Shown here: piece after piece, positions 43-59,179 of the stretch | How positions within the stretch are numbered: position 1 is the first letter of the stretch | How the letters are laid out: each line of letters begins with the position of its first letter | Source: Desulfobotulus pelophilus | GTDB taxonomy: Bacteria; Desulfobacterota; Desulfobacteria; Desulfobacterales; ASO4-4 | Direction of reading: 5' to 3' | DNA: 64,000 nt | NCBI RefSeq assembly: GCF_026155325.1 | Contig: NZ_JAPFPW010000005.1 | Span: forward strand, 62,001 to 126,000 | Translations under genes and position numbers: made by a program | Notes under the pieces: generated by a model | What the model saw: the letters and a program-made list of their open reading frames with translations, nothing else | What the model was told of the DNA's origin: nothing | The model's database searches: none

Positions 43-444
43 TCAGCCAAGAATATACTGCTGAAACTCCGCTGCCGGAGGGATGGGATGGTAGCAGTAA
101 ACAAGGGCACCGGAGGGATCCAGAAGCCCGAAGCCCCTGTCTCCCCATGGATGATCTTCCAGAGGCATGATGACAGACAGACCCGCCTGATCATGCAGCC
201 TCTCGTACATGGCATCGGCATCCGTCACAAGGACATTCAGAAAGATACCTCCGGTAAAAGGAACCATGCCTTCCTGGGGCTTCATAAGGCAGATTTCCGG
301 CCCGGACGGGGAAGCTCCAAGGCGAAGCACCACGTACCAGCCGCAGTCGAAGGCCGGGCGGGCATCAAAGTGTGAGATATAAAATCCCTTTGTTTCTTCA
401 AGATTTTGCGTGACAATGGTTGTGCTGACGGATTGAATTTCCAT
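43..444 (-). CDS. VOC (glyoxalase/bleomycin-resistance fold) family protein
   Basis: A 133-residue protein with the features of a single vicinal-oxygen-chelate domain protein: an N-terminal beta strand followed by a helix containing NLEETKGFY, and a C-terminal strand LLDPSGALVYCYH typical of these modules. Members bind metals or small hydrophobic ligands; the substrate cannot be read from sequence. The ATG at 444 is preferred because GGAGG lies just upstream; a TTG twelve bases further upstream would add four residues. It diverges from the JetD-like gene across a region with two A/T-rich palindromes. The family call is fairly sure; the function is unknown. Confidence 0.8.
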   Translation of the reverse strand: MEIQSVSTTIVTQNLEETKGFYISHFDARPAFDCGWYVVLRLGASPSGPEICLMKPQEGMVPFTGGIFLNVLVTDADAMYERLHDQAGLSVIMPLEDHPWGDRGFGLLDPSGALVYCYHPIPPAAEFQQYILG

Positions 445-39241: not shown

Positions 39242-40183
39242 TTACATCCAGTCTGTCAGCAGGAATCCCAATCCTATGCGATTAACGGATACATTGTAGT
39301 CAAGAAGACTCTCTCCGTATCCGTTGAAGTATTGTACGTACAGTTTCAGGTGCTGGTGAACCGGAAAAGTCCAGTCCACCTGTATGGCTCCTCTGTTATC
39401 CTTTCCTCTGAGATTATTGCGCAGGAGCAGTGCCAGATTCTGTTCTTCCTTCACCTTGTACACTAACCGGATGTCTCCATATCCCATGTAGTTATGGATT
39501 CCGGGATTGTCATCCCCTCCCGGGTCCGTGGGATGGGATTTTTTACTTTCGGGAATCCGGTACCATGGCCGGATGATTACTGCCGTGCGGTCTCCGATTT
39601 CCCATATGCTGCTGAGATAAACACGGTTCCAGCTTCTGGACATAAGGCCGTTCTGTCCGTTGGACTGATGATTAAGACCCAAAACGAGATGGGACAGATG
39701 GATGCGCCCTTTTTGTTTTTCCATGGCGTAGGAAAGAAGCAGCTCCGGTTCATGGTTTGTTTCGCGGAAAGGGCTGGAATCGTCTTTGTTGTAGGCCTGC
39801 CACCATGACCGGTTGGTATAGGCAAAGGCAAGGTTGGCACGTCCATCCCAGAAATTACGGAGAACAGGGACCTTAATACTGATCTGAAAATGAACTTCCG
39901 TATTGTCAATGTCGCTGTCCGGATCTTCCGGTGTAGGGTTGGGAGAGCTATTCCAGGTAAACGGGAGAAGGTAGTTGGTTTTATGGGGCAGCATGGCAAA
40001 GGGGTTGTCGGCCGTACTTTTTTCCAGCTTTCTCCTTTCTTCCAGGGGATTGACCAGGAGGAGAGTTTCATATCCTTCATCAGAAGTATCCCCTGCTTCG
40101 GATGGTTCAGCAAAGGAAAGGCCGGGCGCAAGTATCAGAAGCAAGGCAGAGAGAATCAGGCCTGAAATGGGAACACAGGGCAT
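39242..40183 (-). CDS. pldA: Outer-membrane phospholipase A (OMPLA)
   Basis: A 313-residue protein with a signal peptide (ISGLILSALLLILAPGLSFA) and a 12-strand beta-barrel. The catalytic triad is visible as His172 and Ser174 in NHQSNGQ and Asn186 in SRSWNRVY. The spacing (2 and 12 residues) equals that of Escherichia coli His142-Ser144-Asn156. The enzyme hydrolyses phospholipids misplaced in the outer leaflet, with calcium-dependent dimerisation. The ATG at 40183 follows AGGAAGG; an upstream start would add residues before the signal peptide. Confidence 0.92.
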   Translation of the reverse strand: MPCVPISGLILSALLLILAPGLSFAEPSEAGDTSDEGYETLLLVNPLEERRKLEKSTADNPFAMLPHKTNYLLPFTWNSSPNPTPEDPDSDIDNTEVHFQISIKVPVLRNFWDGRANLAFAYTNRSWWQAYNKDDSSPFRETNHEPELLLSYAMEKQKGRIHLSHLVLGLNHQSNGQNGLMSRSWNRVYLSSIWEIGDRTAVIIRPWYRIPESKKSHPTDPGGDDNPGIHNYMGYGDIRLVYKVKEEQNLALLLRNNLRGKDNRGAIQVDWTFPVHQHLKLYVQYFNGYGESLLDYNVSVNRIGLGFLLTDWM

Positions 40184-40245
40184 GGACACACCTTCCTGTA
40201 AGGGGTTGGGGAAAACCGTATGAAATACTTTAGCGTAAAGGACAT

Positions 40246-40902
40246 GTGAAAACAATGGAGAAGACCCGCATTCAGACCCTCTTACTGGATAATGATGGCG
40301 TCCTGGTGGACACGGAAAAATGTTATTTTGAGGCAAATCGTCGTGTACTGGCAGAATATGATATTACCATGAACCTTGAGGATTATCAGGAACATTTTTT
40401 GAGGTCATCCAGGGGGATTCATGCCTGGTTTCCGGAAATGTCTGCTTCATTTATGTCTGACTTCAGGGAAAAAAGAAATAAACATCACATGGAGCTGTTG
40501 GCAAAGGAGCCCATAACCATACCCGGAGTGGACAAGGTTCTTGCTGACTTTTCATCGCGTTTTCGTATCGGTGTGGTAACCAGCTCGGAAAAAAAACCTT
40601 TTCTGCGCATTCATGAGCGTACCGGATTTCTTCCTTTTTTTGATTTTGTGGTCTGCCGGGAGGATGTGCGGTTTTCTAAGCCCCATCCGGAGCCCTACCT
40701 GAAAGCCCTTACCATGGCAGGCTGTCCTGCGGAATTCTGCCTGGTGATTGAAGATGCCCGGAGGGGTGTAATGGCAGCTCAGGCGGCGGGGCTTTGCTGC
40801 TGGGTGGTTCCGGGACCTATGGGATGTGGCGGGGATCTCAGTGGAGCAGAGCGGGTTTTACACAGTCTGGAAGAAGCCCGTTCCCTTCTGATGGATGTTT
40901 GA
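40246..40902 (+). CDS. HAD-family phosphatase (beta-phosphoglucomutase-like subfamily)
   Basis: A 218-residue HAD hydrolase. Motif I is LLDNDGVLVDTE with the nucleophilic Asp, motif II is VVTSSEKK, motif III Lys is in FSKPHPEPYLKAL and motif IV is VIEDARRGVMAA. The helical cap lies between motifs I and II. It hydrolyses a phosphomonoester or isomerises a sugar phosphate; the substrate is not readable. The GTG at 40246 follows AAAGGA; an ATG nine bases later is possible. It diverges from pldA. Confidence 0.86.
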   Translation: MKTMEKTRIQTLLLDNDGVLVDTEKCYFEANRRVLAEYDITMNLEDYQEHFLRSSRGIHAWFPEMSASFMSDFREKRNKHHMELLAKEPITIPGVDKVLADFSSRFRIGVVTSSEKKPFLRIHERTGFLPFFDFVVCREDVRFSKPHPEPYLKALTMAGCPAEFCLVIEDARRGVMAAQAAGLCCWVVPGPMGCGGDLSGAERVLHSLEEARSLLMDV

Positions 40903-41112
40903 AGAAGGTTGTTTTTTTGGTGCTAGCTATTGCAAAATTCATTGCTGTGTACTTATCTTGTTAGGTCTGGCTAATATGGGTTGCCAGGCTGAATAGCAGA
41001 CAAGGCCTTAGGGGCTGTGAGATATGGAGTGCCATAGCCGGAGATCCGTTTTCAGCTTGAGCTGGAAATATGGCGTGAAAAGGTTGAATTGATACGGAAG
41101 TCAGGAGGCTTT

Positions 41113-41682
41113 ATGAAAGCAATGCCCATAGCAGCGGGAAAATCCAGTTTCTCTCTTGTAGATACCCAGCGACTGAAAGAGGCTCTGGGCCCCCTGGACG
41201 GCATGGTGATTCTGGATGCTGCCTGCGGTGCGGGAAACTATACACTGGCCCTTGCCCGCTGGGCAGGACTGCACAGCCGCATTTATGCCGTGGACCTCTG
41301 GGAGGAGGGTGTTTTTGAGCTGAGGCAGCGTATCCGTGATGCCGGAGCGTCCTATATTCAGGCAATGGTGGCCGATCTTTCTCAGGGCACTACACTGGCT
41401 GCGGAAAGTGTGGATCTTTGTCTGGCTGCTACGGTGCTTCATGATCTGGTGGCCGATGGAACCATAGACGGAATGATGAAGGCGGTGGCACGGACACTCA
41501 AATGCGAAGGACGGCTTGCTGTGGTGGAGTTTGACAAAAAGCCCGGCCCCCCCGGTCCTCCGGAAGCCATACGTCTTTCTCCTGAAGAGCTGACGGCTCT
41601 GGTTGTCCCCTTTGGATTCACCCTTGATGAGATACGGCCTGTGGGTGATTCGCTCTACCTTGCGGTTTTCCGCCGCGGTTAG
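41113..41682 (+). CDS. Class I SAM-dependent methyltransferase (UbiE-like)
   Basis: A 189-residue methyltransferase. SAM-binding motif I is VILDAACGAGNYTLALAR, the acidic end of strand 2 is IYAVDLWEEG, and the post-I region DLCLAATVLHDL and EGRLAVVEFDKK complete the fold. It resembles small UbiE/arsenite-type methyltransferases but has no cysteine set expected of ArsM. AGGAGGC precedes the ATG at 41113. The substrate is unknown. It is directly upstream of the structured-RNA region. Confidence 0.85.
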   Translation: MKAMPIAAGKSSFSLVDTQRLKEALGPLDGMVILDAACGAGNYTLALARWAGLHSRIYAVDLWEEGVFELRQRIRDAGASYIQAMVADLSQGTTLAAESVDLCLAATVLHDLVADGTIDGMMKAVARTLKCEGRLAVVEFDKKPGPPGPPEAIRLSPEELTALVVPFGFTLDEIRPVGDSLYLAVFRRG

Positions 41683-41733
41683 ATTTTACAGGAAAAGGCA
41701 TGGCGGATATCAGGAACTTTATGATTTTCGTCC

Positions 41734-41762
41734 TTGACAAGAGGTGGGAACGTGCCAATGTT
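41734..41762 (+). promoter_or_regulatory. Candidate promoter of the structured RNA
   Basis: TTGACA (41734-41739) is a perfect -35 box; 17 bp later AATGTT (41757-41762) is a weak -10. Transcription would start near 41770, just before the first hairpin. A second, weaker candidate (TTGAGC at 41879) lies inside the structured region. Confidence 0.35.
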
Positions 41763-41769
41763 TGGTACC

Positions 41770-42054
41770 AGATAGAGAAACCGGAAAAAGTCTGTTCGGT
41801 AAAAAGCCGGTTTCTGATTCTGCGCTTCGGGAACGGAAGCGGCCCCATCTGAAACAATGTAAAGAATCTTTCGGCCAATTGAGCCGACCTTCCTTGTTAC
41901 TATGTAACCTGCCGCCCTCGATGAAGGGTCTCTGCACCATGAAGAAAACCCGCCTGAGGGTGACCATTTCCGTTCCCACAGACACTACCGTGATTCCCTG
42001 TGAATCACGATCAGCCCCCCGGATTCTTTGAGAGTTCCGGGGGGCTTTGTTTTT
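41770..42054 (+). ncRNA. Candidate structured non-coding RNA ending in a strong terminator
   Basis: A region with no plausible protein but dense plus-strand pairing. Hairpins: AGAAACCGG/CCGGTTTCT (41776-41784, 41807-41815); GATTCT/AGAATC (41816-41821, 41863-41868) enclosing CGCTTC/GAAGCG (41823-41841); TCGGC/GCCGA (41871-41887); GTTAC/GTAAC (41896-41908); ACCC/GGGT (41948-41961); CGTGATTC/GAATCACG (41989-42009). GGGAACGGAA (41829-41838) can instead pair with TTCCGTTCCC (41968-41977). It ends at the terminator 42013-42051. No downstream plus-strand gene exists before 47838, so it is not an obvious leader. It does not resemble tmRNA, RNase P, SRP or 6S RNA as I know them. Confidence 0.55.
42013..42054 (+). 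terminator. Near-ideal intrinsic terminator of the candidate RNA
   Basis: AGCCCCCCGGA (42013-42023) pairs perfectly over 11 bp with TCCGGGGGGCT (42036-42046), loop of 12, followed by TTGTTTTTG. It is the strongest plus-strand terminator in the window and lies 330 bp after the methyltransferase stop, too far to be simply that gene's own 3' end. Confidence 0.85.

Positions 42055-59104: not shown

Positions 59105-59179
<75 letters not shown>

Follow-up and report, generated by a model that had tools for sequence, protein, structure and literature searches.

Among the RNAs already described in bacteria, 6S RNA has a large internal region bounded by a closing helix and is encoded as a single-copy intergenic gene, and CsrA sponges are characterised by their GGA motifs. 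Hfq-independent, structured base-pairing small RNAs with exposed C-rich segments occur in Gram-positive bacteria. PMC11109978 reports the gcsH motif, a narrow cis motif that lies upstream of a gene in two Desulfobacteraceae genera, and PMC11124144 covers noncoding RNA prediction in Oleidesulfovibrio. In the open-licence literature we found no paper on a small RNA of Desulfobotulus, and none describing the RNA reported here. We analysed a stretch of 64,000 nucleotides from Desulfobotulus pelophilus (the window), which, judged from comparison with related genomes, very probably contains an undescribed, genus-restricted noncoding RNA gene of the structured intergenic small RNA kind.

The whole inferred RNA is ∼285 nt long and occupies positions 41770–42054 of the plus strand. 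At gathering thresholds, Rfam 15 returned no family here or at either of the homologous loci in the related species, and at E 10 it returned nothing credible for the stretch. tmRNA, RNase P RNA and SRP RNA were set aside, having no Rfam or ARAGORN match there; across the window, the only hit of either program at a cut-off was a tRNA-Gly at 59105. 6S RNA (RF00013) was likewise rejected: its model gave no hit to the stretch as far as E 10, and the genome has its 6S gene elsewhere, on contig C21 (106.9 bits). These searches, including the Rfam check that it had suggested, agree with an earlier sequence-only reading of the window, which had held the stretch to be unlike tmRNA, RNase P, SRP and 6S RNA. 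The Desulfobotulus RNA shares with 6S RNA a large internal region bounded by a closing helix, the single copy and the intergenic position, but differs in its branched interior with two hairpins, in having its own terminator and in giving no match to the Rfam 6S model at E 10. The best Rfam score of the stretch was obtained with the myxobacterial Pxr small RNA (RF01812), at 20.8 bits and E 0.26 against a gathering score of 80. Both have two hairpins and a GC-rich terminator (41946–42053), but the matched part is mostly the fast-changing 3′ end of the Desulfobotulus RNA, and the match, which we rejected, is probably a chance resemblance of terminators. Compared by description, the likeness to the Gram-positive C-rich small RNAs extends to the terminator, several hairpins, exposed pyrimidine segments complementary to Shine-Dalgarno sequences, and the finding of no Hfq. 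The narrow distribution and few representatives recall the gcsH motif of PMC11109978, which differs in being a cis element that precedes a gene, whereas the Desulfobotulus RNA has no fixed gene partner.

The locus displays the parts of a putative self-contained transcription unit, all on the plus strand. The 5′ end of the RNA is placed by reference to a perfect TTGACA, a −35-like hexamer at 41734–41739 that is kept in all three species, 42 nt from the 5′ hairpin in the window and 36 nt in both relatives. By eye, a −10-like AATGTT follows at 41757–41762, 17 nt 3′ of TTGACA, although it matches the consensus poorly, and a consensus promoter scan listed no sigma-70 promoter at the locus. The 5′ hairpin, P0 (41776–41815), has a 9-bp stem with arms at 41776–41784 and 41807–41815. 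An 11-bp closing helix, P1 (41829–41977, arms 41829–41839 and 41967–41977), then surrounds two further elements: P2, a small hairpin at 41871–41887, and P3, an irregular long hairpin at 41913–41962 that pairs CGCCC with GGGUG around a nested GGGU/ACCC helix and is the minimum free energy (MFE) state of the isolated domain in all three species. P2 folds and was found in all three species by hand pairing, being misregistered in the MAFFT alignment. Directly 3′ of P2 lies CCTTCCT (41888–41894), a partly exposed pyrimidine run present in all three species. P4, a pre-terminator hairpin at 41989–42009 with an 8-bp stem (41989–41996/42002–42009), is kept as a hairpin in the relatives with a different sequence. 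The unit closes with an intrinsic terminator (42013–42054) comprising an 11-bp GC-rich stem (arms 42013–42023 and 42036–42046) and the T tract TTTGTTTTT at 42046–42054, and a T-rich tail is present in all three species. With its loop of 12 it is beyond the limit of 8 set in the terminator scan, where it is accordingly missing. The hairpins of 8–9 perfect base pairs, the GC-rich terminator with its T tract and the TTGACA just ahead of the RNA had all been claimed in the sequence-only reading, and each was located.

We then assessed the strength of the fold. The plus strand of 41770–42054 folds with z = −4.55, and none of 200 dinucleotide shuffles was as good; the homologues in the two relatives fold with z of −4.11 and −3.26, again with none of 200 shuffles as good in either case. 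As a control, 128 plus-strand tiles of 285 nt, sampled from across the whole window, were folded with 12 shuffles each, and the RNA stretch ranked first, ahead of all of them, with an MFE 23.8 below its shuffle mean (−23.8) compared with −16.9 for the next best tile. The minus strand of the stretch folds slightly better (z −5.49, and −27.7 in the tiling measure), so folding alone does not assign the strand. In the three-species alignment, 13 cells hold G–U and 4 hold A–C on the plus-strand structure, a count that leans towards the plus strand, the structure having been fitted to that strand. Together, the T tract, TTGACA and the G–U pairs indicate that the plus strand is the RNA strand.

Homologues were sought by BLAST in a sample of 58 genomes, made up of the genome of the window and 57 relatives. 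Two relatives of the same genus, G001 and G002, each contain a single copy (the homologues being L022:2850–3134 and L023:3055–3348, both on the minus strand), detected at 80% identity over 97 query bases for G001 (E 5.4e-15) and 85% over 97 query bases for G002 (E 9.8e-21). The rest of the matches listed, with E above 0.004 over 16–49 bases, were put down to chance. A covariance model built on the core gave one hit per genome in all three Desulfobotulus genomes, at 151–180 bits; the model matches these, its source sequences, by construction. Run against two overlapping samples, 389 genomes at the order level and 395 at the phylum level, the model found no credible copy outside the genus; both searches used stricter filters, at a cost in sensitivity to weak matches, and a copy that had diverged strongly could escape them. 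At the order level, 15 of the 389 genomes had a hit at E ≤ 1, namely the three Desulfobotulus and 12 weak ones (E 0.0136–0.72), and at the phylum level four of 395 had a hit at E ≤ 0.1, namely the genome of the window and three weak ones (E 0.0038–0.066), two of which come from one genus with nearly the same alignment. We rejected these 15 weak hits (L038–L049 and L058–L060; alignments shown for 12 and reading frames for all 15): reading frames of 113–702 codons cover at least 73% of each, and they are therefore taken as chance matches in genes. An exact search with one conserved 20-mer hit a single record of the genome_contigs collection, from D. alkaliphilus (records near the window genome were possibly left out of this collection), and none in viral contigs; phage and plasmid collections gave no match to the RNA. 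The RNA thus appears to be restricted to the genus Desulfobotulus and present in its three available species.

The three sequences share a predicted fold, P0 – P1[P2, P3] – P4 – terminator. Identity is unevenly distributed along it, at 67–91% in the core, 38–73% in the 5′ part and 41–53% in the 3′ part. In the extended three-species alignment the shared core is ∼150 nt, the window copy being 67–68% identical to the relatives there, and in its inner 3′ half 60 of the 73 window positions (78–150) are invariant. Standard pairs occupy 89.9% of cells, compared with 35–51% when the partners are slid by 1–3 columns. Both sides of a pair have changed in 14 of 69 pairs, against 7.0 ± 1.8 in shuffles (none of 500 as high), counts drawn from three sequences, two of them close, on a structure derived from the same alignment; we regard them as supportive rather than decisive for the fold. 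The RNAalifold covariation term was slightly unfavourable for the whole RNA (+0.79 kcal/mol) and −0.21 kcal/mol for the core, its weakness arising because the gain from compensatory pairs is cancelled by pairs that are broken in one sequence.

The clearest compensatory changes are found in P0 and the terminator. P0 (helix 1) pairs AGAAACC with GGUUUCU in the window and ACAAACC with GGUUUGU in both relatives, a G–C to C–G exchange that is its one two-sided change, with all seven pairs kept in all three species. In the terminator (helix 8), five of 16 pairs show two-sided change. The 22 bases of P1 are identical in all three species and show no covariation, and as its 11 pairs never vary, P1 is uninformative about pairing. 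P3 (helices 5 and 6) is 100% paired, with one-sided change to G–U in four of 14 pairs and no two-sided change, and the isolated domain adopts the same kind of MFE pairing in all three species. We also considered, and rejected, a two-state switch within P3, a single state alone lying within 4 kcal/mol in each of the three. Four apparent two-sided changes in P2 reflect a one-base register shift of the hand pairing, and for P4 that pairing picked up a stray upstream copy of one arm in the window; neither enters the evidence. An undescribed structured RNA had been the central proposal of the sequence-only reading, and it is supported by the presence of the RNA, TTGACA and terminator in all three species, at a different locus in the relatives, by the compensatory changes, by the failure of any Rfam family to reach its cut-off in the stretch, and by the separate 6S gene.

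With high confidence, we assign the locus as a noncoding RNA gene of Desulfobotulus. The Hfq model (Pfam PF17209) matched nothing in the three Desulfobotulus genomes but did match in five of 14 control genomes. From this, together with the separate 6S gene, the invariant P1, the largely invariant inner 3′ half of the core and CCTTCCT, we read the gene as probably encoding a single-copy, autonomous, Hfq-independent, trans-acting structured RNA, whatever its exact mode of action. It would be transcribed on the plus strand from its own TTGACA promoter, end at the intrinsic terminator and fold as described above, with P0, P4 and the terminator protecting its ends, and it would act in trans without Hfq. 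Our first choice for the mode of action, offered tentatively ahead of protein binding, is base pairing to ribosome-binding sites. Two pyrimidine-rich segments inside P1, CCTTCCT and AACCTGCC (∼41906–41913), would be offered to the ribosome-binding sites of mRNAs. Both are conserved, partly exposed and complementary to a Shine-Dalgarno-like sequence, and the partition function gives CCTTCCT an unpaired probability of ∼0.6–0.9 in the window, 0.5–0.9 in G2 and 0.3–0.8 in G1. Complements of the second segment (≤2 mismatches) occur 100, 81 and 76 times in the three genomes, compared with 31, 28 and 17 for the reversed pattern, an excess of ∼3- to 4.5-fold that is a pattern count and names no target candidate. 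Base-pairing small RNAs are usually less structured, and an invariant P1 is no less compatible with protein recognition than with base pairing.

The best-surviving alternative, which we consider possible though rather unlikely, is that the RNA binds or sequesters a protein, in the manner of 6S RNA, CsrB or a ribonucleoprotein scaffold, with the invariant P1 and P3 forming the protein site. The identity of all 22 bases of P1 across three species, in a core that is only 67–68% identical between the window copy and the relatives, suggests a sequence constraint beyond pairing, and the finding of no Hfq also suits this alternative. In contrast, 6S RNA gives no match even at E 10 and has its gene elsewhere, and the few GGA motifs seen by eye, two of them inside P1, make the RNA unlike CsrA sponges. 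A more specific form, in which a new Desulfobotulus-only RNA family forms a dedicated ribonucleoprotein, with P1 and P3 holding a putative protein of these sulfate-reducing bacteria, is less probable still; if true, the RNA would be this lineage's own counterpart of the 6S or CsrB-type regulatory RNAs. The locus is an undescribed but well-supported RNA gene in a genus where no Hfq gene was found, and its single copy makes it a clean object for deletion and pull-down. Its distribution is narrow, and its importance would be greater if the RNA proved to be protein-binding or a global regulator.

The surroundings of the RNA bear on whether it could instead be a cis-acting leader or a 3′ UTR of a neighbouring gene (a riboswitch, an attenuator or a UTR-derived RNA), which we consider highly improbable. 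A plus-strand methyltransferase gene (41089–41682; Pfam Methyltransf_25) ends ∼90 bp before the RNA begins in the window, which could favour such an origin, but the genes next downstream of the RNA are on the minus strand and the terminator closes the RNA. In G001 and G002 the RNA has on one side a 191-aa gene, next to what we take to be pyrG, and on the other a PadR regulator with a chromate transporter beyond it (Pfam was run on the G002 copies). In these relatives the space from the RNA to the 191-aa gene holds a conserved small protein gene (∼60 aa), on the strand of the RNA and ∼0.4 kb downstream of it, which is the other point in favour of a cis element. Against this, the genome of the window has the 191-aa gene (C2:128212) and PadR (C2:161302) 33 kb apart, and in the 6 kb fetched around the 191-aa gene the small protein gene is kept and the RNA is absent. 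The relatives have the methyltransferase on other contigs than the RNA, and the covariance model found no copy in the stretches fetched around it (L062 and L063); the comparison suggested earlier, of regions after the same methyltransferase gene, would thus have failed. No gene was seen fixed beside the RNA in all three species. A riboswitch or leader would occupy a fixed site upstream of a same-strand gene, and here the neighbourhood differs between species; a promoter-like sequence and a terminator are conserved with the RNA, as in an autonomous small RNA, with a weak −10 and no promoter in the scan. Since the neighbourhood differs, the kept unit is TTGACA, RNA and terminator, independent of neighbouring genes, which weakens the case for a leader, UTR product or protein-linked element and bears out the earlier view that the RNA leads no plus-strand gene. 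A lineage-specific RNA gene has in this way retained its promoter hexamer, its fold and its terminator through a change of genomic location.

A small protein gene or dual-function RNA is similarly improbable. Open reading frames of 95 aa (plus strand) and 156 aa (minus strand) span the RNA in the window, but a search of the three homologues for a conserved frame found longest frames that differ in strand, frame, length and sequence, and the core alignment contains gaps of one and two bases, in keeping with the earlier claim that no credible protein is encoded. Finally, a non-autonomous, MITE-like mobile element with P1 as its terminal inverted repeats would account for the 11-bp inverted repeats and the differing neighbourhoods, but is very doubtful given one copy per genome in all three species, a promoter-like hexamer and terminator kept outside the repeats, and no match in phage or plasmid collections or, for the exact 20-mer, in viral contigs.

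The change of place itself was traced between the window (41089–42054) and G000:C2:128212–161607, where a rearrangement between the congeners has swapped the neighbours of the RNA, of a large sensor histidine kinase and of the methyltransferase. In G002 the methyltransferase has a histidine kinase next to it, and in the genome of the window a histidine kinase, similar by eye, stands beside the 191-aa gene. A simple inversion was rejected because the methyltransferase is not oriented as it would require, and a more complex rearrangement is likely.

Two further features were recorded. Upstream of the 191-aa gene by pyrG lies a stretch of ∼230 nt with 75% identity among the species (L061:2443–2673, from G000:C2; L022:2198–2426; L023:2395–2609); considered as a second RNA, it was rejected, as it encodes on the minus strand a lysine-rich protein of ∼60 aa kept in all three species. 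In the window, 39242–40336 on the minus strand encodes a phospholipase A1 family protein (PF02253, E 4.9e-98).
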